The notes under the pieces: generated by a model
What the model was told of the DNA's origin: nothing
Databases searched by the model: none
What the model saw: the letters and a program-made list of their open reading frames with translations, nothing else
Shown here: positions 36,155 through 64,000 of the stretch, piece after piece
Layout: the number at the start of each line of letters is the position of its first letter
Position numbering within the stretch: the first letter of the stretch is position 1
NCBI GenBank assembly: GCA_033065855.1
Contig: JAVXUO010003001.1
Location: forward strand, 1,922,001 to 1,986,000
Reading direction: 5' to 3'
Origin: Escallonia rubra
Lineage: Eukaryota > Streptophyta > Magnoliopsida > Escalloniales > Escalloniaceae
DNA length: 64,000 nucleotides
Translations under genes and position numbers: made by a program

Positions 36155-36156
<2 letters not shown>

Positions 36157-36202
<46 letters not shown>
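36157..36202. repeat. (TA)n microsatellite, about 22 units
   Basis: An uninterrupted TA run between the 170-bp duplication and the first promoter copy. Confidence 0.95.
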
Positions 36203-36204
<2 letters not shown>

Positions 36205-36219
36205 TCTTTTAATCTTATT

Positions 36220-37674: not shown

Positions 37675-37894
37675 ATTCAAGAATGTCCTCTCTTTCCCGA
37701 ACATAATTTCTTTTCTTTCTCTTTCTGTTCCTCCGTTTCAATTCTGGCAAATTAGACCCGCAGAACTCCATAAACGAACCAGCAAGTTAACCATGGCACC
37801 TCCTCAGTCTTCACCGATATACTGCAGAATTCGAAGAGTGCCTTTCTCGCTCGCAATATTGAAAAGCATTAAACCCAACCCCCCCCCGTCTCTT

Positions 37895-38378: not shown

Positions 38379-38458
38379 TCAATTCTGGCCAATTAATCCC
38401 ACAGAACTCCATTGCCGAACCAGCAAATTAACCATTGCCACGTCTTCAGTTCACCGAT

Positions 38459-38513
38459 ATGCTACAGAGACTCAACCGCCGCAATCGCAACAGCGCACCA
38501 GATGGAAGACAAG
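38459..38513 (+). CDS. Candidate first coding exon of an unidentified gene (18 codons)
   Basis: It lies downstream of promoter copy P3. The ATG at 38459 opens MLQRLNRRNRNSAPDGRQ and reaches a plausible donor, CAAG|GTGATTT, at 38513 (phase 1). The parallel place in P1 (37793) has a different ATG, MAPPQSSPIYCRI, and a different frame, so one or both may be non-coding. I do not recognise the peptide. No second exon could be supported before the satellite begins; a further one could lie beyond the window. Confidence 0.3.
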
Positions 38514-39479
38514 GTGATTTCTTGTTTTTACATTCTCTCTGTCTCGATTCAAGATTTATTAATTGCTGCTTTTTTTGGTGGTTAATTCTACCCGACTTGA
38601 CCAGTTCATTCCCGATCTGGAACCAAGGGTTTTGCTCCCCCCTCAAACATGTAGAGGTAACCGGTTGATCTTTGTTAGAATTGGGGCTTTACTCTGTACA
38701 TAGGAAAATTGTAGTGCTGGATATTATTTGTATGAATGAATGATTTGGGTTATCATGGGACATTATCTACCTGTGAGGAAAGGAGTCTGGTCTGGGGTCG
38801 AGCCTTGGTTATTTTACGTGCTTTCAGGCGTTTGGTCAAGAACCTTCAATAGCAGGGCTGATTATTTCTACTCCTTGAATTTTGTTAGTATTTTTGGAGC
38901 TTTAGAAGCTAGGGTAGAGCGTCATTTGCTTGGAAGCATGCCCCAAGATAACACCTGCAGATTTGGGGTCTTCTAGCGGTTGGAGTTCATGCTCGAATTC
39001 CCCCCAATTGGAATATGATGCTTTTTGTTGACACGTATACGTGCTGCGCGTGTATGCGTATGCAAGCGAGCGCCTATTCAGATAATGCATTTTGATTAAA
39101 CAATTGACAATTTTTTTTTTTTTTAATCATGGTTTATCTGTGAATCAACTTTTAAGCAAATTCGTTAATTTCTCCCGTTGGTACTTAATGGATGCACCAT
39201 TGGACGTTCCGTATGTTGGAAATGCTTTCTAAGTGAAAAAAAACCTTGATTCTTCAGAATTAGAATTTGGGAAATGTGGGACTTTTCAACTAGGTAGAGG
39301 TTGGGGAGGTCCGAGATATGTATTCTATGTAGGGAAGTGGAGAAGGACTTACATCCTAGAAGAAAAAAAAACTCAGTTCTCCACCACCGTTAGTTTTGTT
39401 GAAATATTGCTATCTTGTTATCTTATTTAGTTTTTATATCTTTGTATGTCGTATCTAATATTTAATTGGCTTATTTTCC
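38514..39479. other. Unassigned stretch between the candidate exon and the satellite
   Basis: Either the first intron of the candidate gene or intergenic DNA. A piece at 38588-38656 is open and ends in a possible donor (GTAGAG|GTAACC) but has no recognisable protein. It becomes T-rich toward 39420. Confidence 0.4.
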
Positions 39480-42400
39480 TTTATTTGATATAATACTTCT
39501 TAATTTTCTTCTTGTTGTACATATCATATTAAAAGTTCATTCCAGTATTACTTTTTGTGATGCTTCATAACTTCTTCATATCACATTTTGCCTCTCCACT
39601 TCTTTTAACCTCAACACTACATAATTGATTGTTTATTACTACTTTTTAAACTATTCTTCAATATTTTAACGTGTTTTACCCTCATACTTTTTCGATTTTA
39701 TCACTCTTCATCTTTTCCGAAACTTCATATTTCGATTAAATGACTTTTTATTCGTGATATATTATGTTTTTCTTTTCCACTTCTTTTACCCACGTTATGT
39801 AGCTGATTTTTTTTATTACTTTCCTTTTTCACCGTTCTTCCATTATTATCGTGATTGAATCTCAGACGCTTTCCCTTTATTTGATAAAGTATTTCTTATT
39901 TTTCTTCTTGCTTCTAGATATTATATTAAATGTCCATTTTGTATTACTTTTTGTAATGCTTCATAACTTCTTCATATTACATTTTGCCTCTCCACTTCTT
40001 TTATCCTCGTTATGTAGTTGACTGTTTATTACTACTTTTTTAATCATTCTTCAATATTTTGACGTGTTTTAGCGTTAGGTATTTTCCTTGTTTGCACTCT
40101 TCATCTCTTCTAAGACTTCATATTTCAAGTGTACTGTTTTTATTTTAATCGTGGCTTATGTTCTACATGTTTTTAGATGACTTTGTATTCTTGGTATATT
40201 TTATTTTTCCTTATCACATTTTATCCAAATTATGTAGTTGATTTTTTGTTACTTATCTTTTTTACAGTTCTTCGTTTTTTAACGTGTTTGCATTTCTGAC
40301 GCTTTTGTTTTTCCACTCGTCATCATTTCCAAATCATTATATTTTTAATAAACTGTTTTGTTTTAGCTTTGATTTATTTTCTACGAATTTTCAAATGACT
40401 TATAGTATTCTCGGTATATTTGTTTTTTCTTTGCCACATCTTTTACCCACATTATGCACTTGAATTTGTTTATTACTTTTTTTCACTGTTCTTCAATTTC
40501 TTTACATGTTTCTTTCTTGGATGCTTTTGATTTTCTTCATATTTATATTTTTAATACAGTGTTTTATTTTAGCCTTAATATACTTTTCACATCTTGTTAA
40601 ATGATATTTTTTGTATATATCTCTTTTCCTTTCCACTTCTTTTACCCATATGATGTATTTTTATTTTTTATTACTTTCTTTTTTCATCATTGTTTAATTT
40701 TATGTTATGGTGTTTCGTCCTCATGTTCTTTCGCTTTTTCACTCGTCAATCTTTTTCGAATCTTTATATTTTCAATAAACTTTTTTATTTTGACATTGGC
40801 TTATTTTACACGTGTTTTAAAATGACGTAATATTCTTTGTTTATTCCTTCCCACTCCTTTTACTCATATTATATAATTAATGTTTTTATTCCCTTTTTTT
40901 TTTAATTTCTTGACGTGGTTCTGTCAGCGGCACTTTTGATTATCCTTTTTATTCTTCATCTTTATACTTGTAATAAACTGCTTTATTTTGGCCTTGTTCA
41001 TTTTTTTTCACGTGTTTTAAATGATTTGATATTTTTTGTATAGACTGTTTTCCCTTTTCACTTCTTTTCCCCACATTATGTATTTTTTATTACTTTCTTT
41101 TTTCACCGTTCTCCATTAGTATCCCATATTTTGCTTTGCCTTTCTACTTTTTTAAGTGAAATTATGTAGGTGATTTTGTAATACTTTTATTTTATAGTTC
41201 CTCAATTATTTTAATGTGTTTCAGCATGCTTCTGCTTTTTCACTCTTTATCTTTTTCGAATCTTTATATTTTTATTCTTTGACTCACATTTTGTAGCTAT
41301 TTTTTTTATCACTTATTGTTTGTTATAGTTCTTTAATTTCTTAACGTGTTTTTAGCTCATATTCTTTTGCTCCTCTTCATCTTTTTCAAATCTTTATATT
41401 TTTATTAAACTGTTTATTTTGGTCTTTCCTGTTTTTTTTCTTTTGTGTGTGTTTTCAAATGAGTTAATATCTTGGTATAGACTGCTTTTCTTTTTCACTT
41501 CTTTTACTTACGCAATTTATTTTATTTTGTTGTTACTTACATTTACTTTTCTCACCGGTCTTTGACTTTTAACGTATTTCTGGTTTAGACGCTTTCACAT
41601 TTTAACCCTCCATCTCTCTCGAATCTTTATATTTTGTAGTAAATTATTTTATTTTTGCCTTGGGTTATTTTCTACGTATTTTCAAATGATTTGGTATTCT
41701 TGGCATATTTTGTTTTCCATTTCCACTTCTTTTACCAACATTGTGTAGTTGATATTTTTACTATTATCCTTTTTATCGTGTTTTGATTTTTTAAATTGTT
41801 TTTATCTCGTATGCTTTCACTCTTCTACTCTTTATCTTATTCATGTACTTATATATTAGTAAACTATTTTATTTTGGCCTTGGCTTATTTTACGTGTTTT
41901 CAGATGACTTAGTCTTCCTAATATAATTTGCTTTTGCTTTTCATTCCCACTTTTTCACCCACATTGATTTTTTTTTAAAAATATTTTCTTGTTATCTCGT
42001 TCTTCAATTATTTAAGGTGTTTTTGTCTTAGATGCTTTCACCTTTCCGCTATTCTTGATTTTTGAATATATACATTTTCAGTGAATTATTTAATTCTGAC
42101 CTTGGCTTGCTCTTTACGGGTTTCAAATAGTATTATTGTTATATTTTGTTTTTCTTCACCACTTTTTTACCCACATTGTGTATTTGATATTTTTATTAAT
42201 TTTTTTCGTCATTCTTCAATTTCTTAATGTGTTTATATCTTTGACACTTTCGATTCTCCACATCTTTTTCAAATTTTTACTATTTTTTGTTTGCTTTTGA
42301 TTTTGCTTATTTTCTACTTGTTTATAGTAATTGGTATATTTTCTATATTGCTTTTCCTTTCCACTTCTTTTACCCACGTGATGTATTTTATTTTTTTGTC

Positions 42401-42749
42401 ACCCTTTTTTAACTGTTCTTTAATATTTCACTTGTTTTTACCTTGAACTCTTTTGATTTTTCACTTCTCATTTTTTTCAATTCTTTATACTTTCATTAAA
42501 AAAAAATATTTTTGGCCTAATTTATGTTATGTAGTTGATTTTTTTTTTACTTTTCTTTTCAGGGTTCTTATTTTTATAACGTGTTTGTACCTCTGACGCT
42601 TTCATTTTTTTCTCTCTTCATCTTTTTGAATCTTTACATGTTCAGTAAACTGTTTCGTTTTGGCCTTGGCTTATTTTCAACGTGTTTTTAAATAATTTAG
42701 TATCCTTAGTATATTTTATTTTTATTTTCACTTCATTTACCAAGATTAT

Positions 42750-45700
42750 GTAGCTAATTTCAAATGACTTGGTATCCCAGTAAACTTTAATTTTTATTTC
42801 CATTTTTTTTACCCACATTATGTAGCATATTTTGTATTACTCACTATTTTATCCTTCTTCAAATTTTTATGTGTTACCGCTTCATAGTCTTTCATTGTTC
42901 GACTTTATCATTTTTAAATCTTTATATTTCATTAAACTTATTTATTTTGGCATTTGCTTACTTTCTACGTGTTTTCAAATGATTTAGTATTCCTAGTATA
43001 TTTTAATTTTAATTTTCGTTTTCACTTCTTTTATCCATATTATGTAATATATTTTTTACTATTTTTTTTCGTTCTTCTTCAATTTAAAATGTGTTTTACC
43101 TCACATTCTTACGTTTTTTATTTCCTCAACTTTTTCGAATCTTGATATTTTTAGTAAATTTTTTTAGTCTGACATTTGCTTAGTCTTTACTGTTATTCAG
43201 TGCTTTAGTGTTCTTGGTATATTTTGTTTTTTCTTACCATTTCTTTTACACACATTATGTAGTTGATTTTTTGATAAATTTTTCTTCATTATTTTTCAGT
43301 TTCTTAACGTGTTTCCGTCTCCAATGCTTTGAGTTCCCCTCATCTTTTCATCATCTTCATATTTAGAGTAAACCGTTTAATTTTGGCCTTTGCTTATTTT
43401 TATGTGTTTTCAATTGATTTGATATTTGTTGTGTGGATTGATTTTGCTTTCTACTTCTTTTACACACATGATGTATTTTATTTTATTTTTACTTTTTTTC
43501 ACCGTTTTTATTTTTTAACATGTTTTTAACTCGTATTCTTTGGCGTTACCCCTACTCATCTTTTTCAAATCTTTATATTTTCAATAGACATTTTTATTTT
43601 GCTGGTATTAGTCTTTACGTGTGTTAAATTGATTTGGTATTCTTCGTATATTTTACTTTTCATTCTCTCTTCTTTTACCCATACTCTATAGTTGTTCTCT
43701 CTCTCTCTCTCTCTCTCTCTTTTTACTTTCTTATTTCATTGTTTTTCAACTTTCAAATGTATTTCAGTGTCAGACAGTTAGCTTTTCAGCTTTTCATCTT
43801 ATCCAATTCTTTATATTTTCAGTAAATCATTTTTTTTTTGCCTTGAATTCTTTTCTACGTGTTTTCAAATGACTTCATACTCTTGTTATATTTTATTTCA
43901 CCTTTCCACTTCGTGTATCTACAATATGTATTTTTTTTAGCACTTCTCCTTTTCACCTTTCTTTGATTTTTAACGTGTTTCTATCTCAGACTTTTTTGTT
44001 TTTCTACTGTCGCGTTTTATCAAATCTCTATATTTTTAGTATGTTATTTAATTTGGCCTTTGCTTAATTTCTAAGTGTTTTCAAATGGCTTGGTATTTTT
44101 GGAATATTTTATTTTTCATTCCCACTTTTTTTACGCATATAATGTAGTTGACTTTTTATTACTCAATTTTTTTGTCGTTCTTCAATTTTCCAATGTGTTT
44201 CTTCCTCATATGCTTTTTCTTTTCCACTCTTTGATCATTTTTAAATCTTTATACTTCAAGTAAACTACTATTTTTTGGCCTTGCCTAATTTTTTGTCATA
44301 TTTCCAAATACGTGGTATTCATAGTATATTTTGCTTTTCCTTATCACTTCTTTTATTACTTTATGCAGTTTATTTTTTACTCTTCTTTTTCACCATTCTT
44401 CGATCTTTAACGAGTTTGTACTTCTGATGCTTTCGCTTTTCCAATTATTTATCTTTTGAAATTTATTTTATATATCTATATATATATTTTAAAATGTTTT
44501 ATTTGGGCTTTGTTTTTGTTTTTACATGTTTTAAAATGACTTGATATTCTTGGTGTATTTTGCTTTAGCTCACAAGTTCTTTTATCCATATTGTGTTTTT
44601 AAATTTATCTTCTTTCTTCAATTTTTAACGTTTTTGTAGCTCTTACGCTTTCGCTTTTCACTCTTTGTCCTTTGAAATTATTATCTTTTTAGTTAACTAT
44701 TTTATTTTTGCCGTTGCTTATTTTTTACATGTTCGCAAATGACTTGGTATTCTAGTAAATGTTAATTTTCATTTGCACTTCTTTTACCCACATTATTTAC
44801 TATATTTGTTATTACGTGTTTTTTATTTTTTTAAATCTTTATATTTTTAATAAAGTGTTTAAGTTTAGTCTTGACTTATTTTATTACGAACTTTCAAATG
44901 ACTTGGTATTCTTGGTATATATTATTTTTCTTTGTCACTTCTTTTACCCACATTATGTAGTTCATTTTGTTTATTAATTTTTTAAATAGTCGTTCTTCAA
45001 ATTTTTAACGTGTTTTTGTCTTCGATGCTTTTGATTCTCTTCATGTTTATATTTTTAATCAAGTGTTTTATTTCAGCCTTAACTTAATTTTCACGTGTCT
45101 TTAAATGATATTTTGTATATAATACTTTTCCTTTCCACTTTTTTTTTCCTTTATAATGTAATTTAATTTTTTATTACTTTCTTTTGTCATCATTGTTTAA
45201 TTTTCTTTTATGGTGTTTCGGCCTCGTATTCTTTCGCTTTTTCACGCCTCTCTTCTTCGATTCTTTATATTTTCGGTTAACTTTTTTATTTTTAACCTTG
45301 ACTTAGTGTATACGTGTTATTGAAATGACTTAATATTATTCATATATTTTGTTTTTTCCTTTCCACTTCTTTTATCTACATTATGCAATTGATTTTTTTA
45401 TTAATTTTTTTTCTAATTTCTTAACGTGTTTTTGTTACCGGTGCTTTCGATATCCTTTTGATTCTCCTCATTTTTTTATTTACAGTAAATTGTTTTATTT
45501 TGGTCTTAACTTTTTTTTCCTCCGTATTTCTATTGATTTGGTTATTTTTATATTGACTATTTTCCTTTTCACTTCTTTTATCCTCATGTATTATAGTTTT
45601 TTACTACTTTCTTTTCACCCTTCCCCATTTTTTGACGTGTTTCCATCTCTTACGCTTTCGCCATTCTACTTTTCATCTTTATACTTAATAAAGTGTTTTA

Positions 45701-47960
45701 TTTTGCCCTCGGCTTATCTTACTTAGTTTCAAGTGACTCTAGTATCTTGGTATACTTTGCTCTGCCTTCCCACGTTTTTAACCGATATTATGTAGTTAAT
45801 TTTTTACTACTTTCATTTTTTTACTATTCTCGAATTTTTTAACGTGTTTTTGCTTCAAGCGCGTTCACTTTTCCACTGTTTATCTTTTTTGAATTTTTAT
45901 ATTTTTAATAAACTGTTTATTTTGGCTTGGCTTGGCTTATTTTTTTTTAAGTATTTTCAGATGACTTGGTATTCTTTTTTATGTTGTTTTTCCTTTCCGG
46001 TTCTTTGACTCACATTATTTAGTTATGGTTTTATCACTTATTATTTTTTATCGTTCTTCAATTTCTTAATGCGTTTTTACATCATTTGTTTTCGCTCCTT
46101 TTCATCTTTTTTGAATTTTTATATTTTTATTAAACTGTTTTATTTTGGTCCTTGCTTTTTTTTAAAAAATGACTTGATATCTTCGTATGTACTGCTTTTC
46201 CTTTTCACTTCTTTTACCTACATTTTTTATATTGTTTTTACTTACTTTTTGAGCCGTTCTTCAATTTTTAACGTGTTTCTCCCTCAGATGCTTTCATTTT
46301 TCTACACTACATCGTTTTTGAATCTTTAAACTTTGTTGTAAACTGTTTATTTTTGGCCTTGGTTATTTTCTATGTATTTCAATTGATATGGTATTCTTTT
46401 CATATCTTTTTATTTCCACTTCTTTTACTGCATTGTGTAGTTGATATTTTTTATCGTTACCCTTTTTACCGTGTTTTAATCTTTTTCATTGTTTTTGTCT
46501 CATATGTTTTCACTTTTCTACTCTTCATTTTTTTCATATATTTGGCCTATGTGTTTTTCAATTGACTTGGTCTTCCTGGTATATTTTACTTTTGCTTTTG
46601 CTTTTCCTTTCCACTTTTTTAACCCACAGTATGTAGTTAATTTTTTAATATATTTTTATTCAGTTATTAAACTTATTTTTGTCTTAGATGCTTTCGTCTT
46701 TCCACTCTTCTGAAATTTTTGAATCTTTACATTTTTAGTAATATGTTTTATGTTACCTTGGGTTGTTTTATATGTGTTTCAAATGACATAGTTTTCTTGG
46801 TATATTTTATTTTTCTTTACCACTTTCTTTACCCACAAGTAATTGATATTTTTATTACTTTTTTTTCATCGTTCTTCAATTTAGTAACGCGTTTCTATCT
46901 CCCATGCTTTCGATTCTCATCATCTTTTCCGAATCTTTTATGTATTTTCTACGTGTTTTAAAATGATTTGGTACTTTCGATATATGTATTGCTTTTCCTT
47001 TCCTCTTTTTTTAACCCACATGATTTTTTTGTCACTTTATTTGTTACTGTCCTTCAATATTTACACTTGTTTTTCCTCTCTTTCATTTTTTCACTTCTCA
47101 TCCTTTTCAATTCTTTATATTTTCATTAAACATTTTTCATTTTTTCCTTGATTTATGTTATGTAGTTGATTTTTTTTTACTTTTTTTCAGTTTTATTCTA
47201 TTTCTAATTCGTACATTTTCAATTCTTTATATTTTCATTAAACTTTTTTCATTTTTAAATTTTCAGTAAACTGTTTCATTTTGGCCTTGGCTTATTTTCA
47301 ACGTGCTTTTAACTGATTTTGTATTCTTAGTATATTTTACTTTTCATTTCCACTTCATATACCCAAACTAAGTAGTTAATTTTTTAGTACTCTTTTTTTT
47401 GTCGCCGTTATTTAATTTTTTTAGCATGTTTTTTTAATTTCTTTTCCTCTTCTTCGTTTTTCGATTTTTAACGGGCTTTACCTCAGACACTCTTGCTTTT
47501 TCACACTTCATCATTTTGAATTTTTATATTTTAGTCAACTCTTTTATTTTGGCGTTGGTTTATTTTATACATGCTTTCAAATGACTTAGTATTCTTTATA
47601 TATTTTATTTTTTCCTTCCACCTCGTTACCCACATTACGGAGTCACATTTTTTATTACTTTTATTTTTTCATTCTTCTTCAATTTCTTAATGTTTCTGCC
47701 TCAAAGGTTTTTGCTTCTCCACATAGTTTTTGAATCTTTATATTTTCAGTAGACTTTTTATTTTGGCCGTAGCTTATTGTTTACGTCTTTTCAAACAACT
47801 TGAAATTCTTGGTATATTTTGCTTTTGCTTTTACGCTTCTTTACCCACATTATGTAGTTGATTTCTTTATTATCGTCCTCAATTTTTTTAACGTGTTTCC
47901 GTCTCAATCGCTTTCGGTTTTCAACCCTTCATTTTTAAAAAAGTGCTTAAATTTTTAGTA
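42750..47960 (+). repeat. Higher-order repeat copy A of the satellite
   Basis: Its series of variant monomers is repeated in the same order in the next block. Matched landmarks: a TTTAGAGTAAACCGTTTAAT variant at 43362, a CTACGAACTTTC-type variant near 44885, ACCTTGGGTTGTTTT near 46755, and a GGAGTCACATTTTTTATTAC variant near 47638. Confidence 0.7.
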
Positions 47961-48049
47961 AATTATTTATTGTGGTCTTGCCTTATTTTCTACTTCTTTC
48001 CACTTTTTTAAACTGAAATTATGTAGTTGATTTTTAATACTTTTTTTAA

Positions 48050-51000
48050 GAGTTCCTTAATTTTTAAATGTGTTTCAGATGATGTATCTCCTTTGTTTTA
48101 CTTTTTCATTAAACTTATTTGTTTTGGCCTTGGCTTACTTTCTACGTGTTTTCAAATGATTTTCCTAGTATATTTTATATTTCGTTTTCACTTCTTTTAT
48201 CCACATTATGTAATATGTTTTTTACTAATTTTTTTCGTTGTTCTTCTATTAAAAATGTGTGTTTACCTCATACTCTTACGTTTTTATTTCCTCAACTTTT
48301 TTGAATCTTGATGTTTTTAGTGAATTTTTTTATTCTAACATTTGCTTAGTTTATATTGTTTTTCAATGATTTCTTAAGTTTTCTTGGTATATTTTGTTTT
48401 TCTTACCATTTCTTTTACATGCATTATGTAGTTGATTTTTTAATAATTTTCTCTTCATCATTCTTCAATTTCTTAATGTGTTCCCGTTTCTGATGCTTTC
48501 AGTTCCCCCCATCTTTTCCTCGTCTTCATATTTAGAGTAAATCGTTTAATTTTGACCTTTGCTTATTTTTGTGTGTTTTCAATTGATTTGATATTTGTTG
48601 TGCGGATTGCTTTGCTTTTTACTTCTTTTTACACACATGATGTATTTTATTATTTTTTACTTTTTTCCACCTTTTTTATTTTTTAAACGTGTTTTTTACT
48701 CGTATTCTTTCGCTTTACTCCTCCTCATCTTTTTCAAATCTTTTTATTTTCATTAGACATTTTTATTTTTCTGGTATTAGTCTTTACGTGTTTTCAAATG
48801 ACTTGGTATCCTAGTATATTTTACTTTTCATTTCTTCTTCTTTTACCCATACTCTATAGATGATTTTTTTTCTACTTTCTTATTTCGCTGTTCTTCAACT
48901 TTCAAATGTATTTTGGTCTCAGACATTCGCTTTTCAGCTCTTCATCTGATCCAAATCTTTATATTTTAAGTAAACCATTTTTTTTGCCTTGACTTCATTT
49001 CTACGTGTTTTCAAATGACTTTGTAATCTTATCATATTTTATTTCACCTTTCCACTTCGTGTATCCACATTATGTAGTTTTTTTTAGCACTTCTCCTCTT
49101 CATATTTCTTCGATTTTTAACGCGTTTGTATCTCAAACGATTTTGTTTTTCTACTCATGCATTTTATCGAATCTCGATATTTTTAGTAGGTTATTTAATT
49201 TGGCCTTGGCTTATTTTCTAAGTGTTTTTTAATAGCTTGGTATTTTGTGAATATTTTATTTTTCATTCCCACTTATTTTACGCCTATAATGTAGTTGATT
49301 TTTTACTAAATTTTTTTGTCGTTCTTCAATTTTTCAATGTGTTTCTTCCTCATATGCTTTTTCTTTTGCACTCTTGATCATATTTAAATCTTTATACTTC
49401 AAGTAAACTATTTTTTTTTTGCCTTACCTAATTTTTTTCATGTTTCCAAATACATGGTATTCATAGTGTATTTTGCTTTTCCTTATCACTTCTTTTATTT
49501 ACTTTATGCAGTTTATTTTTTATTACTCTTCCTTTTCACCATTCTTTAATCTTTAACGAGTTTATACCTATGACCCTTTCACTTGTCAATTATTTATCTT
49601 TGGGAATCTTTATATTTTTATTAAATTGTTTTATTTTGTCCTTATTTTAGTTTTTACATGCTTTGAAATGACTTGATATTCTTGGTATATTTTGCTTTTC
49701 CTTACAACTTTTTTTTCTTTATATTGTGTTTTTAATTTTTCCTCCGTTCTTCAATTTTTAACGTGTTTGTACCTTTTACACTTTCGCTTTTCCACTCTTC
49801 GTCCTTTGAAATCATTATCTTTTCAGTTAACTGTTTTATTTTGGCCATAGCTTATTTTTACGTGTTTGCAAATGACTTGGTATTCTAGTAATTCTTATTT
49901 TTCAGTTGCATTTCTTTTACTCACATTATTTAATATATTTGTTATTACGTGTTTTTCGTTTTTCCAAATCTTATATTTTTAATAATGTGTTTTATTTTAG
50001 TCTTGACTTATTTTCTACGAACTTTCAAATGACGTAGTATTCTTGATACAAATTATTTTTCTTTGCCACTTCTTTTACTCACATTTTTTTTTATCACCGT
50101 TTTTCAAAATTTTAACGTTTTTTTGCCTTTTACGCTTTTGATTCTCTTCATCTTTATATTTTTAGTAAACTATTTTATTTCAGCCTTAACCTATTTTTCA
50201 CGTGTCTTTAAATGATATATTTTGTATATAATGCTTTTTCTTTCCACTTCTTTTACCTATATAATGTATTTTATTTTTTATTACTTTCTTTTTTCATCAT
50301 TACTTAACTTTCTTTTATGGTGTTTTGGCCTCATATTCTTTCACTTTTTCACTCCTCATCTTCTTCGAATCTTTATATTTTCAGTAAATATTTTCATTTT
50401 TTTAACCTTGACTTAGTTTATACATGTTATTGAAATGTCTTAATATTCTTCGTATATTTTGTTTTCCTTTCCTTTTCTTTTATCTACATTATGTAATTGA
50501 TTTTTTATTAACTATCTTTCTTTTTAATTTTTAACGTGTTTTTGTCACTGGCGCTTTCAATTCTCCTTATATTTATATTTACAGTAAACTGCTTTATTTT
50601 GGTCTTAACTTTTTTTTCCCTACGTATTTCAATTGATTTGGTATTTTTTTGTATAGACTGTGTTTCCTTTGCACTTCTTTTATCCTCATGTATTTTAGTT
50701 TTTTGCTACTTTGTTTTCACCCTTCATTTTTCAACGTGTTTCTGCCATTTTACTTTTCATCTTTATACTTGATAAACTGTTTTATTTTGCCCTTGGCTTA
50801 TTTTACTTGGTTTCAAGTGACTTTAGTATCTTGGAATTGGAATATTTTGCTCTGCCTTCCCACTTTTTAAACCAATATTATGTAGTTGATTTTTTAATAC
50901 TTTCCCTTTTTTATCGTTCCCCAATTTTTTAACATGTTTCTGCATCAGGCGCGTTCGCTTTTCCACTCTTTATCTTTTTTGAATCTTTATATTTTTAATA

Positions 51001-53450
51001 AAAATTGTCTTATTTTGGCCATGGCTTATTTTTTAAAGTATTTTTAAATGACTTGGTATTCTTTGGTTTTCCATTCCGGTTCTTTGACTCACATTATGTA
51101 GTTATAGTTTTATCACTTATTATCTTTTATCTTTCTTCAATTTCTTAATGTGTTTTGCATCATATGCTTTCGCTTCGCTTCATCTTTTTCAAAATTTTAT
51201 ATTTTTAGTAAGCTGTTTTATTTTGGTCCTTGCCTTTTTATTTTTGTTTTATGTGTGTGTGTGTTTTTAAATGACTTGATATCATGGTAAAGACTTATTT
51301 TCCTTTTCACCTCTTTTACCTACATTTTTTTATTTTGCTTTACTTACTTTTCTACCCGTTCTTCAATTTTGAACGTGTTTCTCCCTCAGATGCTTTCACT
51401 TTTCCACACTTCATCGTTTTTGAATCTTTAAATTTTGTTGTAAACTCTTATATTTTGGCCTTCGGTTATTTTCGACGTATTTTGAATGATATGGTATTCT
51501 TGTCATATTTTGTTTTTTATTTCCACTTCTTTTACCAAACATTTTGTAGTTGATATTTTTTATTGACACTTCATCGTTTTTGAATCTTTAAATTTTGTTG
51601 TAAACTCTTATATTTTGGCCTTCGGTTATTTTCGACGTATTTTGAATGATATGGTATTCTTGTCATATTTTGTTTTTTATTTCCACTTCTTTTACCAAAC
51701 ATTTTGTAGTTGATATTTTTTATTGCTATCCTTTTTACCGTGTTTTAATCTTTTTCATGTGTTTTTGTCTCATATGCTTTCACTTTTCTACTCTTCATTT
51801 TTTTTCATGTATTTATATTTTAGTAAACTGTTTTATTTTGGCCTTGGCTTATTTTATGTGTTTTTTAAATGACTTCCTGGTATGTTTTGCTTCTGCTTTT
51901 CCTTTCTACTTTTTTAACCCACAATACGTAGTAGATTTTTAATATATTTTTTATTCAATTATTTGACGTGTTTCTGTCTCGGATGTTTTCGTCTTTCCAC
52001 TCTTCTTAAATTTTTGAATCTTTACATTTTAAGTAAATTGTTTTATGTTTACCTTGGGTTGTGTTTTACGTGTTTCAAATGATATAATATTCTTGGTATA
52101 TTTTGTTTTTCTTTACCACTTCCTTTACCCACATTATGTAATTGATATTATTATTACTTTTTTTTCCATCGCTCTTCAATTTCTCAACGTGTTTCTATCT
52201 CCCACGCTTTCGATTCTCCTCATCTTTTTTGAGCATTCTACGTGTTTTTAAAATGATTTGGTACTTTCTTATATATTGCTTTTCCTATCCTCTTTTTTCA
52301 CCCACGTGATTTATTGTCAGTTTATTTTTTAACGTCCTTTAATATTTTCACTTGTTTTTCCCTTAAACTGTTTCGGTTTTTCACTTCTCATCATTTTCAA
52401 TTCTTTATATTTTCAATAAACTTTTTTCATTTTTGCCCTGAGTTATGCTATCTAGTTGATTTTTTTTTCCTTTTCATTTTCAATGTTCTTCTATTTCTAA
52501 TGCGTTTTTACCTCTGACGCTTACGGGTTTTTACTCTTCATCTTTTCGAATTTTCACATTTTTAGTAAACTGTTTCATTTTGGCCTTGGCTTATTTTCAA
52601 CGTGTTTTCAAATGATTATGTATTCTTAGTATATTTTACTTTTTATTTCCACTTCATTTACCCAGATTAAGTACTTAATTTTTTATTACTCTCTTTTTGT
52701 CGCTGTTATTTAATATTTTTAGAATGTCTCTGCTTCATGTGCTTTCGCCTTTCCAGTCTTCATGCTTTTGAATCTAAAAACAAATTCATTAACGTGTTTT
52801 ATTTTATTTTTGGCCTTGCCTTATTGTTTATATGTTTCAAATGACTTAGTATTTTTTAATATATTTTGCATTGTCTTATCATTTCTTTTATCCATATTAT
52901 GCTCAATTTTTTTTATTTCTTTTCCTTTTTACCATTTTAAATTTTTTAACGTGCTTTACCTCAGACACTTTCGCTTTTTCACGCTTCATCTTTTTGAATT
53001 TATATTTTAGTAAACTCTTTTATTTTCGCGTAGGTTTATTTTCTACATGCTTTCAGTTGAATTAGTATTCTTCATATATTTTGTTTTTTCTTTCCACATT
53101 TGTTGCCCACATTATGGAGTCACATTTTTTATTACTTTTTTTATTCTTCTTCAATTTCTTAATGTTTCTGCCTCAAAGGTTTTTGCTTCTCCTCATATTT
53201 TTTGAATCTTTATATTTTTAGTAGACTTTTTATTTTGGCCATAGCTTATTTTTTACGTCTTTTCAAATGACTTAAAATTCTTGGTATATTTTGCCTTTGC
53301 TTTACACTTCTTTACTCACATTATGTAGTTGATTTCTTTATTACCATCCTCAATTTTTTTAACGTGTTTTTTCTCAGTCGCTTTAGTTTTTCAACCCTTC
53401 ATTTTTTACAATTGCTTAAATTTTTAGTAATTATTTATTTTGGCATTGGT
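48050..53450 (+). repeat. Higher-order repeat copy B of the satellite
   Basis: It repeats copy A with offsets of about 5.13-5.17 kb early and 5.3-5.5 kb late. Part of the difference is the 160-bp duplication at 51406-51725. Parts of the same series recur again at about 57.1-59.4 kb and 61.3-62.95 kb. Confidence 0.7.
51406..51725 (+). repeat. Perfect 160-bp tandem duplication inside the satellite
   Basis: 51406-51565 and 51566-51725 read identically base for base by eye, from ACACTTCATCGTTTTTGAAT to GATATTTTTTATTG. The equivalent place in higher-order copy A (near 46310-46460) has one copy. Confidence 0.92.
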
Positions 53451-54054
53451 TTATTTTCTATGTGCTTTCAAATGACTTGTTATTCTTGGTATTTTTTTTC
53501 TTTTCCTTTTCACTTCTTTACACAAATCATGTAGATTTTTTTACTACTTTCTATTTTCAACAGTTCTTATATTCTTAACGTGTTTCTGCCTCAGACGCTT
53601 TTGCTTTTTTAATCTTAATCTTTTTTTGAATCTTAAATTTTGGCAAACTATTTATTTTGGCCTTGTTTTATTTTCTGTGTTCTTAAATGATTTGGTATTC
53701 TTGGTATATTTTGCTTTTCCTTTTCACTTGTTTTAAACCAAATTATAGAGTTGACATTTTAATTCCTTTTTTTGGTATTCTTGGTATATTTTGCTTTTCC
53801 CTTTCACTTATTTTTAGCCAAATTATATAGTTAACTTTTTAATTCCTTTTTTCTTCACCGTTCTTTTTTTTAATGTGTTTCTGCACCTGCTTGAGCTTTT
53901 CCATACTTTATGTTTTTCGAAATTGACTTGGTATTCTTGTTTATTTTGACCTTATCTCTACATGTCTTTAATTGACTTGGTATTCTTGTATATTTTGCCT
54001 TTCCTTCCCACTTCTTTTACCCAAAATATGTAGTTGATTTTTTTACTATTTTAC

Positions 54055-54705
54055 TTGTGGTAGCATTCGACACTACATAATTTATTTTAGCTATCTCGCA
54101 CAAAAAACTTGCATAAGTGTGACATTTAACACCTCCCGACTATTTTATGGCAAGAGCTTAGCCAAAGATGTCATTTAACTCAACTTGGGAGGCGGACCTC
54201 AGATCGAGGGTGGCCTCTCGAGCCGTTAGAGGAAATGATTGGAAGGGTCACAAAGCTCCGGCCTTCTTTTCCAACCCTTGAATCGTTGACCATGGTGCCA
54301 AGGTGTTGGTGCCGTCAGAGGAGAAGTGCCGGCGATAGTGGTGCCACGGTCTATGTCTCTCTTTTCCAGCCCTTGAAACGTTGATCATGGTTTGGAGAGA
54401 GGTGATGCCAAGTTCTCTGAGGATAGGACTGGAGGCTGGTGAGCTTGGAGTCAATGATGGCCGTTGAGTCAGTGGTGGCAATTTGGCGAGTGTGCCAGAT
54501 TAGAAAGAGAAGGAAAGAAAGAAGCATTTGCTAAGAATGGCTTCCAAAAATAAACCACGTCACCCACTTTGACGAGTTTTTTGGCCCAAGAAATGGCAGG
54601 AAGAGTTAGATGTCACACTTATGCATGTTTATGCTGCGATATAGCTTGAATAAACTTCGTGGTTCCGATATCACTAGTAGACTTGCGGGTGCCTGGTGTA
54701 GTTAA
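54055..54705. mobile_element. TIR element of about 0.65 kb inserted in the satellite
   Basis: Left end 54058-54132 pairs with the reverse of 54606-54690. The best block is GCATAAGTGTGACAT against ATGTCACACTTATGC, with diverged flanking sequence out to GTGGTAGC. The core is GC-richer than the array and holds an internal direct repeat: CTTTTCCAACCCTTGAATCG near 54266 and CTTTTCCAGCCCTTGAAACG near 54361. The minus-strand ORF at 54248-54481 shows no family features. The long imperfect ends fit a Mutator-like or similar non-autonomous element. Target duplication not resolved. Confidence 0.65.
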
Positions 54706-57700
54706 TCCATTTTTTTAAAACTTGTTTCTACCCTAAGTGCGTTTGCTTTTCCACTCATCTTTTCATAATGTTTATATTTTTAGTAAACATCCCCCCCCAT
54801 CAATCTCAAATCTTTATATTTTCTGTAAAACATTTTATTTTGGCCGTGACTTCTTAATTTTAAAAAGACTTGGTAGTTACTATAATTAATGTATTTGTTA
54901 TTACGTGTTCTTGTTTCCAAATTACTTGGTATATTTTATTTTTCATATTAATTCTTTTATCCATGTTAGGTAGTTAATTTTTTACTCTTTTTTTTTGCCG
55001 TTCAACTTTTTAAGGTATTTTTACCTCGCATGCTTTATCTTTCTCACTCTTTCGAATCTTTATACTTTTAATAAACTGTTTTTTTTTGCCTTGCATTATT
55101 TTTTTCATTTTTTCAAATGACTTAGTATTCTTAGTATATATTTATTTTCCTTATCTCTTCATTAATTTACTTTATTAGTTGATTTTTTAATACTTTTTCC
55201 CCATTATTCTTCGATTTTTACACATGTTGTACCTCTAACACTTTCTCTTTTCCACACTTCATCTTTCTGAATCTTTATATTTTCAATGAACTCTTTTTTT
55301 TATTTTTTTTGCTTTCTTTAGCTTGTACGTGTTTCAAAATGACTTGGTATTCTTGATACATTTGGCTTTTCCTTATCATTTCTTTTATCCGCATTATGCA
55401 GTTGAATTTTTTATAACTTTTCTTTTCTCTGTTCTTCAATTTTTAACGTGTTTATACCCTACTATATTTTTTACGTAGTTTCAAATGACTATATTTTTAT
55501 TACTAATAGTATTTCGTCGTTCTTCAACTTCACAATGCATTTCTGCCTCATACTTTTCTGTTTTGTCAACTCTTCAACTTTTTTGAATCTTTATATTTTC
55601 AGCATTTTTTTATTCTGACATTGGTTTAGTTTCTATTGTTTTCCAAAGTACGTAGGATTCTTGGTGTATTTTATTTTTTCTTACCACTTCTTTTACCCAC
55701 GTTATATAGTTGATTTTTTTATTACATTTTCGTAATTTATCATTTTTAATTTCTCAACGTGTTTCTTTCTCCGATGCTTTTGGTTCTGCAGATCTTTCTT
55801 CATCTTTATATTTAAAGTAAACTGTTTAATTTTGGACCTTGTTATTTTCATGTGCTTTCAAATGACTTGATAATCTTTGTACGGATTGATTTTGGTTTCC
55901 ACTTCTTTTTATACTGATGATGTGTTTTATTTCTTTTACTTCTTTTTCACCGTTCCCTAATTTATTAACGTATTTTTACTTCGCTTTTCGCCTACTGTTC
56001 CTTTTCAATTCATTATGTTTTTAGTAAACATTTTTATTTTGGCCTTGGATTAGTTTTTCTTGTTTATACGTCAAACACGTTCGCTTTTCCACGCCTCATC
56101 TTTTTATAATCTTTATATTTTCAGTAAACACTTTTTTTTCAAGGGCTTATTTCTTACATGTTTTCAAATTGGTATTTGTGGTATATTTTGTTTTTCCTTT
56201 CCAGTTCTTTGACCCACATGATGTGGTTGTTTTTTTCGTTACTTTCTTTTTTCACTATTCTTCAATTCTTTAACGTGTTTTGTCTCGGGCACTTTTGCTT
56301 TTTCACTCTCGTCTATTTCAAATCTATATATATTCTGTAAAATCATCAAGTTTGGCCATGATTTGTTAGTGTTTTAAAATCACTTGGTGTTTATTTTTTT
56401 ATTTTCACTTCGTTTACCCGCATTATGTAATTGATTACCTTTTTTAACCGTTCTTTATTCGTTTGTCGTTTTTCAACCTCAAACGGTTTGGCTTTTAAAC
56501 TCATCATCTTTTCTAATTCCTTATATTTTCAATAAATTGTTTTATTTTCACCTTGGCTCATTTTATACGTGTTCTCAAATAACTTGCTTTTCTTTTAGAC
56601 GACTTTTATCCACTGTATAGTTGATTTTTTATTACTTTCCTTTTTTTTTCGCCGTTCTTCAATTTGTAACAAGTTTCTACCTCGGAAGCTTTTGTTTTTC
56701 CAATCTTCATCTTTTTCAAATTTCATATATTTTTAATAAACTGATTTATTTTTGCCTTGACTTTTCTTTTACGTGTTTTCAGATGACTTGGTATATTTTA
56801 TTTTTTTCATTTTCACTTCTTTTATATACATAGTGTAGTTTATGTTTTTATCACTTCTTATTTGTTGGTCTTTGATTTTTTAACGTGTTGCACTTTCAAA
56901 TGACTTAGTACTCTTGGTATATTTTGCATTTCCTGCTTTTTACCCACCTAATGTAGTTGATTTTTTTATTACTTTCTTTTTCTAGTAATTTTTAAAATTT
57001 TAACCTGTTTCTGCCGCATTCGCTTTTGTCTTTCCATTCTTCATCTTTTCCAATTCTTCTTATATTTTTAAATAATGTATTTTAGTTTGGCCTTCGCTTA
57101 CTTTCTACCTGTTTTCAAATGACTTGGTTTTCCTCTAAATTTTATTTTTCATTTCCATTTCTTTTATTCACATTATGTTACTCACTATTTTATCCTTCTT
57201 CATTTTTTATGTGTTACCGCTTCATAGTCTTTCATTTTTCGACTCTTTATCAATTTTGAATATTTATATTTCATTAAACTTATTTATTTTGGCCTTGGCT
57301 TACTTTCTACGTGTTTTCAAATGACTCGGTATTCCTAGTATATTCTATTTTTTGTTTTCACTTCTTTTACCCACATTATTATGTATTATGTTTTTTACAA
57401 AAAAAAAATCGTTTTTCTTCAATCTTAGAATGTGTTTACTTTATACGTTTTTTATTTCCTCAACTTTTTTGAATCTTCATATTTTTAGTGGATTTTTTTA
57501 TTTTGAATTTTCTTAGTTTTTCCCGTTTTCCAATGATTTAGTGTTCTTGGTATATATATTTTTTTCTTACCATTTCTTTTACACACATTATGTAGTTGAT
57601 TTTATAATAATTTTTTCTTCATCTTCGTCTTCGATATTTTCAGCTCCCCTCATCTTTTCCTCATCTTCATATTTAGAATAAACCGTTTAATTTTGGCCTA

Positions 57701-58227
57701 TGCTTATTTTTTATGTGTTTTCAATTGATTTGATATTCGTTCTTTGGATTGCTTTTGCTTTCTACTTCTTTTTATACACATGATGTATTTTATTATTTTT
57801 TACTTTTTTCCACTATTTTTTATTTTTATCATGTTTTAACTCGTACTCTTTTGCTTCACCCCTCCTCATCTTTTTCAAATTTTATTTTATTTTCAGTAGA
57901 CATTTTTATTTTGCTAGTTTAGTTTTTACATGTTTTCAAATGACTTGATATTTTTCGTATATTTTAGTTTTCCTTCCCTCTTCTTTTGCCCATACTCTAT
58001 GGTTGATATTTTTTTTTCTACTTTCTTATTTTCTTGTTCTTCAACTTTTAAATGTATTCCTATCTCAGACGGTTCACTTTTCATCTCCATCTTATCCAAA
58101 TCTTTATATTTTTAGTAAACTATTCTTTTGCCTTGACTTCTTTTCTACGTGTTTTCAATTGACTTCATATTTTTCTTATAATTGTTTCGTGTTTCCACTT
58201 CGTGTATCCACTGTATGTACTTTTTTT

Positions 58228-58523
58228 TAAAACAAGGGGGAGGTGGCATCTCCTTACACCCACTTTTCTGAAAAAATGACACATAAGGCTAAATTTTCAA
58301 AAATTGCAAAATAGCCCCTCAAGTTCCAAAATTTACAAAATGACCCCAAAATTTTCAAAAAGTGCACTTTTGCCCCAAGATTCTCTTAATATTTATTAAT
58401 TTAATTAAATGTCACTAAAACATACATTGTCACTCATTTTATTATTTTTCATCACCAAAACATTAATTTACAGTTATGCCCCCAAAGTTTTGATAATTAG
58501 ATATACCCCCAAAACATTTTTTT
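58228..58523. mobile_element. Unclassified 300-bp insert in the satellite
   Basis: The array breaks after GTATGTACTTTTTTTT and resumes at TTTTTTTAGCACTTTTT. The insert is A/C-rich and has short internal repeats (TTGCAAAATAGCCCCTCAAG, TTTACAAAATGACCCCAAAA, TTTGCCCC). The ends, ACAAGGGGG and CCCCCAAAACA, are a weak inverted pair. No coding sequence. Confidence 0.5.
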
Positions 58524-60656
58524 AGCACTTTTTCTTTTCACTTTTCTTCGATTTTTAACGTATTTGTACCTCAGATGATTTTGTCTTTCTACTCTTGCAT
58601 TTTTTCGAATCTTGATATTTTCAGTAGGTTGTTTAATTTGACCTTGGCTTATTTTCTAAGTCTTTTCAAATCACTTGGTATTTTTTGGTATATTTTATTT
58701 TTCATTCCCACTTCTTTTACCCATATAATGTAGTTGACTTTTGATTACTCACTTTTTTTGCCATTCATCAATTTTTCAATGTGTTTCTTCCTCAGATGCT
58801 TTTTCTTTTCCACTCTTCATCATTTTTAAATCTTTATACTTAAAGCAAGCTACTTTTTTTTGGCCTTGCCTAATTTTCTTTTCATGTTTTCAAATACATG
58901 GTATTCTTAGTATATTTTGCTTTTCCTTATCACTTCTTTTATTTACTATATGCAGTTCATTTTTCATTACTCTTCTTTTTTACCATTATTCGATCTTTAA
59001 CATGTTTGTACATCTGGCGCTTTCACTTTTTTATTATTTATCTTTTAGACTCTTTATATATTTTCATTAAAACTATTTTATTTTTGCCTTATTTTAGTTT
59101 TTATATGTTTTGAAATGACTTGATATTCTTGGCATATTTTGCTTTTCCTTGCGACTTCTTTGATCCATATTGTGTAGTTAACTTTTTCTTCGTTCTTCAA
59201 TTTTTAACGTGTTTGTACTTTTTACGCTTTGGCTTTTCCACATCTCGTCCTTGACATCTTTATCTTTTCAGTTAACTCTTTTATTTTGGCCATTGCTTAT
59301 TTTTTACGTGTTCGCAATTGACTTAGTATTCTAGTAAATCTCATTTTTCATTTTCATTTCTCTTACCCACATTATGTACTACTATATTTGTTATTACTCC
59401 CATTTTCATACTCTTTCGTTTTTTCCACTCTTCAACTTTTTCAAATCTTTATATTTTACTAAAATTATTTATCAAGGTCTTGGCTTATTTTCTACGCGTT
59501 TTTAAATGACTTGTTATCCCTAATATATTTTATTTTTCATTTCAACTTTTTTTACCCACATTATGTAGCATAACTTTTACTACTAGTTTTTTTTTGTCTT
59601 TCTTAAATTGTATAAATTGGTTTTGCCCATACTTTTTCCTTTTCTCAATTCCTCAACCTTTTATTCGGACTTGGTATAGTTTCCAGCGTTCTTCAATTTT
59701 TAACGTGTTTTTACCTTTGACGTTTTTCCTTTTCAACTCTTCGTCTTTTTGAATCTTTATATTCTTAGTAAACTGTTTTATTCTGTTTTTTGTTTATTTT
59801 CTATGTGTTTTTAAATAACTCAATATTCTAATAAATTTAAAATTTTATTTTCACTTCTTTTACCCACATTATGTATTATATTTTTTATTACTCACTTTTT
59901 TCATCGTTCTTCAATCTTTTTAATTTGTTTTTGCTTTGTACTCTTTCTTTTTTCCACTCTTCATCTTTTTCAAATGTTTATATTTCATTAAACTTAATTA
60001 TTTTGGCCTTGGCTTATTTTTTACGTGTTTTCAAATGACTTGGTATTCCTACTATATTCTATTACTATAAGTTTTTTGTCGTTCTTCAATGTTACAAAGC
60101 AAATCTGCCTCATACTCTTTTGTTTTTCAACTCCTCAACTTTCTTGAATCTTTATATTTCAGTAATTTTTTTTTATTCTGACCTTGGTTTAGTTTCTACG
60201 GTTTTTCAAATGTCTTAGTATTCTTGGTTATTTTATTTTCTCTTACCACTTCTTTTACCCACGTCATATAGTTGATTCTTTAATTACATGTTCTTTATCA
60301 TTTCATTTAACGTGTTTCTGCCTCCGACTCTTTTGGTTCTCCTCATCTTTATATTTAAAGTAAATTATTTAATTTTGGACCTTGGTTATTTTATGTACTT
60401 TCAAATGATTTGATATTCTTTTTACGGATTATTTTGGTTGCTACTTCTTTTTACACAAATGATGTATCTTCTTTGGTTTACTTTTTTCATTAAACTTATT
60501 TATTTTGGCATTGGCTTACTTTCTACGTGTTTTCATATTATTTGGTATTCCTAGTATATTATTTTTCGTTTTCACTTCTTTTACCCACATTATGTAATAT
60601 GCTTTTTACTAATATTTTTTGTTGTTCTCCAATTTAGAACGTGTTTTACCTCATAC

Positions 60657-61253
60657 TCAGCCCGGGTTTAAATCAGCACTTTCCTGCTTACTTTAAATCA
60701 GAGAAAGTCCCTTCTGCATCCAAGCCTTCTGTAATGTGTTGAGCTCTATCATGTCCATTTCTTCCTATATCCTCAGCCTTGATATCTACTCCATTCATTT
60801 CATCCGGACAAATTTTCACACCCCTTCTCCATCCAAGCCTTCTGTAATGTGTTGGGTACAATGGATCATTTTTTGGGCCAGGTATGTTATACTATTTTGT
60901 TTGGTGCAGTGTTGTTTGGAATAAGTACTCTAACGTGACTATGTAATATATTTGCAGCGTTGGAGGTATCAATATGAATGTTGTTGACGGAAACTTCGTC
61001 AACTATTTTGTATTCTAAATTTTCTTTTTAAAATTGTGTTCATTCGATGATTATTAAATTGGTTGAAACACAAGTGTTGTAACTCTAACTTGATGTTTTG
61101 GTTAGATCGTAATTGTTCCAACCTGCACTTGCCATCGCCTTTACTATTTTTATATATTATTGTCTTAATAGTCATATATGACCTTCCTTAATTTATACTT
61201 AATCAATTATTATTAAAAATGTTCCCGTGTGCAACGCACGGGTTCAAAACTAG
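60657..61253 (+). mobile_element. Short non-autonomous Helitron
   Basis: The 3' end is CTAG (61250-61253), preceded by the hairpin CCCGTGTGCAACGCACGGG (61224-61242) and a TTCAAAA gap, followed by T. This is the usual plant Helitron terminus. The 5' end is probably the TC at 60657 before AGCCCGGG. The interior has a duplicated CATCCAAGCCTTCTGTAATG (near 60719 and 60832). No Rep/helicase. It is inserted into the satellite, which continues on both sides. Confidence 0.78.
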
Positions 61254-63156
61254 TATGTTGTTCTCCAATTTATTTCCTCAACTTTTTTTGAATCTTGATA
61301 TTTTTAGTGAATTTTTCATTCTGACATTTGCTTAGTTTCTACTATTTTTCAATGATTTAGTGTTCTTGGTATATTTTGTTTTTTCTTACCATTTCTTTTA
61401 CTCACATTATGTAGTTGATTTTTTAATAATTTTTTCTTCATCATTCTTCAATTTCTTAACGTGTTTCCGTCTCTAATGCTTTAATTTCCCCTCAGCTTTT
61501 CCTCATCTTTATATTTAGAGCAAACTGTTTAATTTTTGCCTCTGCTTATTTTTATGTGTTTTCAATTGATTTGATATTCGTTGTCATGTGCTTTCTACTT
61601 CTTTTTAACACATGATGTATTTTATTATTTTCTACTTTTTCCCACCGTTTTTAAAATTTTAACGTGTTTTTAACTCGTACTCCTTCGCTTTACCCCTCCT
61701 CATCTTTTTCAAATCTTTATCTTTTCGGTAGACATTTTTATTATACTAGTATTAGTTTTTACGTGTTTTCAAATGACTTGGTATTTTTAGTAATTTTATT
61801 TTTCCTTCCGTCTACTTTTACCCACACTCTATAGATGATCTTTTTTTTTTTTGCTTTCTTATTTCGTTGTTCTTCAACTTTTAAATGTGTTTTTGTCTCA
61901 AATGGTTTGCTTTTCAGCTCTTCATCTTATCCAAATCTTTATATTTTCAGTAAACCTTTTTTTTCTTTGCCTTGACTTCTTTTCTACGTGTTTTCAAATG
62001 ACTTCATATTCTTGTTATATTTTGTTTCATCTTTCCATTTCATGTATCCATAGTATGTAGGTTTCCTTTTTTTAGCACTTCTCCTTTTCACCTTTCTTCG
62101 ATTTTTAATGCGTTTGTACCTCAAACGATTTTGTTTTTCTACTCTTGCATTTTATCGAATCTCAATATTTTCAGAAGGTAATTTAATTTGGCCTTGACTT
62201 ATTTTCTAAGTTTTTTCAAATGGCTTGGTATTTTTGGAATATTTTATTTTTCATCCCCACTTCTTTTGTCCATATAATATAGTTGACTTTTCATTACTCA
62301 CTTTTTTTGTCGTTCTTCCATTTTTCAATGTGTTTCTTCCTTAGATGCTTTTTCTTTTCCACTCTTGATCATTTTTAAATATTTAAACTTCAAGTAAACT
62401 ACTTTTTTTTGGCCTTGCGTAATTTTTTTCCATGTTTCCAAATGCATGGTATTCTTAGTATATTTTGCTTTTCCTTATCACTTCTTTTATTTGCTTTATG
62501 CAGTTCATTTTTTATTACTTTTCTTTTTCACCATTATTCGATCTTTAACGTGTTTGTACTTTTGACGCTTTCACTTTTCCATTATTTGTCTTTTGGAATC
62601 TTTATATTTTTATTAAGCCGTTTTATTTTGGCCTTATTTTAGTTTTTACATATTTTGAAATGACTTGACATTCTCGGTATATTTTGCTTTTTCTTACAAC
62701 TTCTTTTATCCGTATTGCGTACTTAATTTTTTTTCTCAGTTCTTCAATTTTTAATGTGTTTTTACCTCTTGCGTTTTCGCTTTTCCATTCTTCGTCCTTT
62801 ATAATCTTTATCTTTTCAGTTAACTGTTTTATTTTGGCCATTGCTTACTTTTTACTTGTTCGCCAATGACTTGGTATTCTAGTAAATCTTATTTTTTATT
62901 TCCATTTCTTTTACCCACATTATGTACTACATTTGTTATTACTCCCTTTTTTGTACTCTTTCGTTTTTCCACTCTTCAACTTTTTCAAAATTTTATATTT
63001 TACTAAACTTATTAATATTGGCCTTTTTCCCTTTTTTTATTAAATGACTTGTTTTTCCTAATATATATTATTTTTCATTTCAACTTCTTTTACTCACATT
63101 ATGTAGCATAACTTTTACTATTAGTATTTCCGTCTTTCTTCGATTGTGCAATGTGT

Positions 63157-63260
63157 GTTTTGCCCATACTCTTTCCTCTATTCAACTCCTCAACCTTTAT
63201 ATATCTTTGTTTTGCCCATACTCTTTCCTCTATTCAACTCCTCAACCTTTATATATCTTT
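63157..63260 (+). repeat. 52-bp tandem duplication in the satellite
   Basis: Units start GTTTTGCCCATACTCTTTCC at 63157 and 63209, with no difference seen. Confidence 0.9.
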
Positions 63261-63599
63261 ATATTTTCAGTAACTTCTTTTATTAGGACCTTGGCTTAGT
63301 TTCCAACGTTCTTCAATTTTTCACGAATTTGTACCTCTCACCCTTTTGCTTTTCAACTCTTTTATACTGTCAGTAAACTGTTTTATTCTGGTCTTTGCTT
63401 ATTTTCTATGTGTTTTCAAATAATATATTACTCTAGTATATTTAATATTTCATCTCCACTTCTTTTACCCACACTATGTATTATTGTATATTTTTTATTA
63501 CTCTCTATTTTTTGTCGTTCTTCAAATTTTTAATATGTTTTTGCTTTATACTCTTTCGTTTTTCCACTCTTTATCTTTTTCGAATGTTTATATTTCGTT

Positions 63600-63641
63600 A
63601 AAAAGACAATATGAATAAATGAAGTTGTAAGGAAAAGCATG
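63600..63641 (-). repeat. Micro-inversion of a satellite segment
   Basis: A purine-rich stretch of about 42 bp. Reversed, it reads TGCTTTTCCTTACAACTTC then ATTTATTCATATTGT, matching the variant seen forward near 49690 and 62685. It is the only clear antisense piece I found in the array. Confidence 0.75.
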
Positions 63642-64000
63642 ACTTCTTTTTACACAGACGATGTATCTTTTCTTTCTTTTACTTTTTTTTCATCGTTCTG
63701 TAATTTCTCAACGTGTTTTTACCTCGTACTCTTTTGCTTTCCGCCTATTTCATCTTTTTCAAATGTTTATAGTTTCAGGAAACCTTTTTTCTTTGGCTTG
63801 GATTATTTTTACGTGTTCTCAAATGATTTTGTTTATTACTTTTTTCTTCTCATCGTTCTTCATTTTCTTAACGTGTTTTTGTCTTTGACGCTTTTGATTC
63901 TCTTCATCTTTATATTTCTAGTAAACTGTTTTATTTCAGCCTCAAGTTATTTTTCACGTGTCTTTAAATGGTATATTTTTCTTTTCCCTTTCACTTATTT

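Follow-up and report, generated by a model that had tools for sequence, protein, structure and literature searches.

A T-rich tandem repeat joined to a truncated Aurora-kinase 5' end at eight or more loci of Escallonia rubra, probably a composite macrosatellite in decay

In the genome of Escallonia rubra, a T-rich tandem repeat with a monomer of about 218 bp is joined to a truncated Aurora-kinase gene, of which the 5' end remains, and the two recur together at 8 or more loci on 7 contigs, in the same relative orientation at all eight. We consider, with a probability of roughly 0.75, that these loci represent a composite macrosatellite, now decaying, that lies in genic DNA and was spread by block and segmental duplication. 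The window, as we call the 64,000-nucleotide stretch that was analysed, covers C3195:1,922,001–1,986,000 (C-numbers are contigs) of an assembly of 566 Mb in 3,222 contigs.

An earlier note on this DNA had proposed a degenerate T-rich satellite in one orientation, more than 24 kb long. Both the type of repeat and its length were borne out. A profile search of the 64-kb window returned 118 monomer matches from about 39,585 to 63,996, head to tail and all 118 on the plus strand, and the array, interrupted by inserts, runs from ~39.4 kb to 64,961, which is 961 bp past the window edge. Its main parts are (window numbering):

About 39,400 to 64,000, continuing to 64,961, plus strand: T-rich array of ~218-bp monomers (profile; start by eye)
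42,927 to 46,912, plus strand: higher-order block, copy 1 (alignment to copy 2)
48,104 to 51,991, plus strand: higher-order block, copy 2 (alignment to copy 1)

The first profile was built from 43 seed monomers of the window (197–235 bp), which match their own profile by construction; the refined profile used 66 full-length copies from the window and the next 25.8 kb. The refined consensus is 218 bp long, with T at 118 of the 218 positions. Identity to the consensus averages 80.0% (range 73.8–84.7%) and pairwise identity 69.1% among these 66 copies. Applied to one strand, the refined profile found no match in a reversed, a reverse-complemented, or one mononucleotide-shuffled copy of the array. 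The periodicity expected in the note appeared as a broad peak at 200–230 bp in the lag spectrum. Tandem Repeats Finder, by contrast, listed no array of ~215 bp, as expected because the monomers are only ~69% identical. Monomer order, said to be well kept, is so in the form of multi-kb blocks: the two copies listed above are 81.8% identical over 4,081 columns at a lag of 5,177. No segment of the consensus is prominent apart from its T-tracts. An internal half-monomer repeat was considered and rejected, its local score of 25 being equalled in 83 of 500 shuffles.

With inserts included, the array contains 13,082 T (51%) and 5,317 A (21%) in 25,561 bases. Monomers differ from the consensus by near-symmetric transitions (C-to-T 0.223, G-to-A 0.207), a spectrum which suggests that the T-richness mostly goes back to a founder monomer and was preserved as copies were added head to tail, instead of being produced by strand-biased mutation. 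The spectrum is not fully symmetric (G-to-T 0.121 versus C-to-A 0.060), which counts against our preferred reading. Rfam gave no match in window 34,000–64,000. In the literature searched, titles and abstract openings held nothing on this T-rich satellite family, and four consensus words of the monomer did not occur. The family is likely undescribed, a judgement based on this literature search.

A genome search with window positions 38,390–39,480, which adjoin the array on its left, gave 67 matches, among them C1020 and C1092. Both carry kinase exons, and the C1020 exons, when joined and translated, give a peptide with PDB matches to Aurora kinases (best 2.8e-87). To the left of the window array, the flank is composed as follows:

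35,810 to 36,349, plus strand: left part of the spacer, with two ~175-bp copies at 98% identity; its match is the left end of the spacers inside C2749, beside the array end there
36,350 to 37,674, plus strand: truncated LINE-type retroelement in the spacer (zf-RVT 1.7e-7, RVT_3 3.2e-15)
37,675 to 38,477, plus strand: Aurora upstream or 5'UTR-like DNA, partly duplicated (short matches to C1020 and other spacers)
38,478 to 38,513, plus strand: Aurora exon 1 remnant, start codon lost (alignment with exon 1 of C1020 and C1092; limits by eye)
38,514 to 39,364, plus strand: most of Aurora intron 1 (C1020 matches 38,555–38,716, 38,808–39,005 and 39,262–39,348)

The candidate exon of the earlier note is thus, judging by alignment, Aurora exon 1, but only as a remnant, followed by most of intron 1; the array begins at the point where intron 1 homology stops. 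This flank recurs as spacers of about 1.7–3.7 kb inside other arrays, the longest being that of the window, which holds the LINE-type insert (A-run at its right end, 14-bp direct repeat at 36,350 and 37,675). Homology to C1020 ends at C1020 position 1,240–1,244 in six of nine array-linked spacers, a position that in C1092 lies about 150–160 bp before exon 2 (by eye); in the remaining three it stops earlier, at 1,127, 1,055 and 788. The array stops at monomer position 217 in all four internal spacers, which indicates one join that was then copied. These alignments establish the repeat–Aurora join itself; the manner and order of its origin we infer.

The intron-adjacent copy of exon 1 has lost its start codon in the window, C511, both C2749 spacers, C3141, the second C3195 locus, C2913 and C2920, and keeps its ATG in C2541. 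An extra upstream copy bearing an ATG is present in C511, both C2749 spacers and C3141. One spacer ORF yielded a 27-residue peptide that matched no family. The C1020 and C1092 genes can be aligned with the array spacers over their upstream DNA, exon 1 and intron 1, and differ from them in having exons 2 onward and no match to the T-rich monomer; the monomer was absent (E<0.001) from the searched stretches of both genes and of the solo copies, that is, the Aurora 5' pieces without an array at C1995 and C1393. The solo copy at C1393:611,001–619,000 has an ATG-bearing exon 1 and retroelement-like open frames within its intron. In a tree of 12 rows, with midpoint root and 4 of 9 inner branches open, C1020 and C1092 are sisters (100/100), and C2541 lies between them and the nine other rows (the other array-linked copies and C1995, a short solo fragment); the tree does not include C1393 or the second spacer of either C511 or C2541.

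A consensus search of the genome gave 709 matches, which among the matches listed fall on 7 contigs. The window array is therefore one of at least eight with the same Aurora 5' fragment, of which the earlier note had made no mention; the genome searches score best candidates only, so that eight loci is a lower bound. The other loci are C3195 ~878.7–909.0 kb, C511 ~341.6–384.7 kb, C2749 0–52.2 kb, C3141 0–41.4 kb, C2541 ~331.9–357.7 kb, C2913 ~866.7–888.0 kb and C2920 0–29.0 kb, for a total of ~270 kb (summed spans, spacers and inserts included). Spacers follow one another at 12.36 kb in C2749, 24.2 kb in C511 and 10.2 kb in C2541, so that these three arrays consist of kb-scale units in tandem, as in a macrosatellite; the window has one spacer. 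The first 3 kb of C2749 are inverted (16 of its 238 matches), with the turn at C2749:3,038–3,103, an inversion or a misassembly.

To place the monomers by kinship, we compared 401 full-length monomers from 4 of the 8 arrays (window, C3195 878–909 kb, C3141, C2749). Nearest relatives had a median identity of 0.926, against a mean of 0.700 for all pairs. Identity within these four arrays (0.696–0.702) equalled that between them (0.699–0.701), unlike the pattern of concerted evolution. The nearest relative lay in another array for 63 of the 71 window monomers (40 in the second C3195 array, 15 in C3141, 8 in C2749) and in the window array for 8, against 12.4 expected at random. C3141 was likewise below random (24 of 122, against 36.9). 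We conclude that blocks were copied with little local homogenisation. Own-array relatives exceeded random in the second C3195 array (26 of 67, against 11.1) and in C2749 (67 of 141, against 49.4); some local duplication exists there, which counts against our preferred reading. Inside the window, identity did not fall with distance and rose only at 5.0–5.5 kb (0.730 versus 0.689–0.699), the lag of the higher-order block.

The window array and the C3195 878–909 kb array, ~1 Mb apart on the same contig, are inverted duplicates of each other, and part of the flank is included. At window 55.1–60.2 kb, 15 of 18 monomers are nearest to that array, in matching order and at an identity of 0.915–0.975. 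The match passes the array end (63,969–65,627 at 88.9%, 67,520–68,447 at 93.1%, with unmatched DNA between), giving a shared non-array flank at 64,961–65,627 and 67,520–68,447. Shared flank stops short of the GRAS gene to the right, no GRAS match being found near C3195:873–885 kb. In C511, two stretches of array separated by 24.2 kb share 99.2% identity over 2,992 columns, and the spacers 91.8% and 93.1%. This mismatch is unexplained by one simple 24-kb duplication, a point against our preferred reading, and could reflect gene conversion, mosaic exchange or assembly error.

The array has also gathered inserts:

54,051 to 54,713, no strand assigned: insert of 663 bp with inverted arms (~56 columns)
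58,231 to 58,517, no strand assigned: insert of 287 bp, absent at the corresponding site of the 878–909 kb array
About 60,657 to 61,253, plus strand: Helitron-like insert, with a hairpin and then a CTAG end
64,239 to 64,895: insert beyond the window that interrupts the array

The 663-bp insert has 81 genome matches and recurs in many of the arrays; weaker single matches occur elsewhere, e.g. at C939:373,134–373,684 and C2610:242,037–242,339. A further stretch of 121 bp (54,789–54,909) has no monomer match. The 287-bp insert was either gained after the duplication or lost from the 878–909 kb array. The third insert is called Helitron-like on its hairpin and CTAG end, which we take to be Helitron features, and is missing from two corresponding blocks of the 878–909 kb array.

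Could a Helitron or other DNA transposon have captured the Aurora 5' piece and the tandem repeat and spread both? Helentrons are described as carrying satellite-like arrays (PMC7492417) and CACTA elements as carrying captured gene fragments (PMC8978399). As in these cases, where they travel within a single mobile unit, tandem repeats and a gene fragment are dispersed here. The dispersal of the loci, the window, C3141 and C2749 ends, which share only short repeats in their flanks, and the solo Aurora pieces at C1995 and C1393 also fit such an origin. We nevertheless consider it unlikely. Outer array ends fall at differing monomer phases (window right 208, second C3195 array outer 33, C2749 right about 17 by eye, C3141 211 by a profile that is unclear there), and no fixed termini were seen at these 4 of 8 loci. 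Transposon domains were likewise not seen, Pfam finding no family in the longest listed ORF within the array, and the non-array flank shared by the two C3195 loci marks a segmental duplication.

Macrosatellites of the D4Z4 type are transcribed or regulated units. Here, Aurora upstream DNA, exon 1 and its 5' splice site might drive a long U-rich satellite RNA, perhaps at G2/M, from the co-oriented arrays at the 8 loci, and retention of an ATG-bearing exon 1 in some of them fits this idea. We regard it as very unlikely. The motif CGACCGTTG, which resembles the plant mitotic MSA element, lies upstream of exon 1 in C1020 and C1092 and was found in none of the 9 array-linked spacer stretches (for C2541, ~330 bp upstream were read), and its absence counts against such transcription.

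A structural role as a centromeric or pericentromeric satellite appears slightly less probable again. The arrays are long, and C2749, C3141 and C2920 match from near their first bases, as if the assembly had broken inside a longer array. However, they sum to only about 270 kb of 566 Mb, they show little homogenisation, and their monomer has nothing prominent beyond T-tracts. The window array has a Sec23_trunk match on one side and a GRAS match on the other, and a glycosyltransferase-8 gene lies ~6.6 kb from the C2749 array, although a gene-rich flank is compatible with a pericentromere. The GRAS-domain protein (1.6e-97; GRAS is a plant protein family) is encoded at 78,611–80,026 in window numbering; this gene lies close to the end of C3195, and C3196 has a 99% copy of it within its first 5 kb (3,155–4,570); the two contigs perhaps overlap or are allelic. 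On the other side, SEC24, placed within 10 kb by the note, is represented by an ORF resembling the SEC24 N-terminus (27,716–28,774) about 10.6 kb from the array, but without a Pfam match, and the nearest Sec23_trunk match (20,630–20,740) is about 19 kb away. In Arabidopsis, SEC24 may lie near an Aurora gene.

Least credible is a third living Aurora gene with the array as its giant intron 1, its other exons beyond the array and the T-rich strand as sense, as in plant introns: the array does follow exon 1 and a GT, and does so in the sense orientation, the sense strand is the T-rich strand at 8 of 8 loci, and ATG-bearing exon 1 copies persist (C2541; the extra copies of C511, C3141 and two C2749 spacers), but the window copy has no start codon, a DNA search with exons 2 onward returned 3 matches, only at C1020 and C1092 (2 of 2 candidates scored), which largely refutes it, and a protein search found Aurora-like exons only at these two among the matches listed (best 150 of 1,472 candidates scored). 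The array is therefore no intron of a living gene that could be found. The earlier suggestion of an intron-resident satellite holds only in that the array starts inside a former Aurora intron 1.

We thus favour a composite macrosatellite. A T-rich 218-bp tandem repeat would have become joined to a truncated Aurora 5' end (upstream DNA, exon 1, most of intron 1), and the joined unit would have been copied as large pieces: as several-kb blocks within arrays, as units of about 10–24 kb in tandem in three arrays, and as whole stretches together with flank through segmental duplication in inverted orientation, a process documented for one pair and probable for the other loci. The copies would since have decayed mostly separately, with C-to-T and G-to-A as the main changes, and unequal exchange may be continuing. 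Most likely the array arose as a by-product of duplication and is now decaying; it has no known function and presumably none, and its features can be explained without one.

Human D4Z4 with DUX4 is described as a macrosatellite with an embedded gene (PMC12376486); the loci studied here share with it kb-long tandem units carrying gene DNA, and differ in having a truncated 5' end as their gene part, the bulk of the unit being itself a degenerate ~218-bp tandem repeat. With classical satellite DNA, which is described as being under concerted evolution (PMC5575873), they share non-coding, head-to-tail monomers of nucleosome scale and higher-order blocks, but the window monomers have their nearest relatives mostly in other arrays, the loci are few, and the flanks are gene-rich. 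Collectively, these findings point to a satellite copied in large blocks together with the gene 5' end to which it is joined, with less homogenisation than is expected of satellites. Since blocks were copied with little homogenisation, monomer-by-monomer kinship can give the order of duplications. Such loci also call for caution in genome annotation, where they can give rise to false first exons or giant introns.
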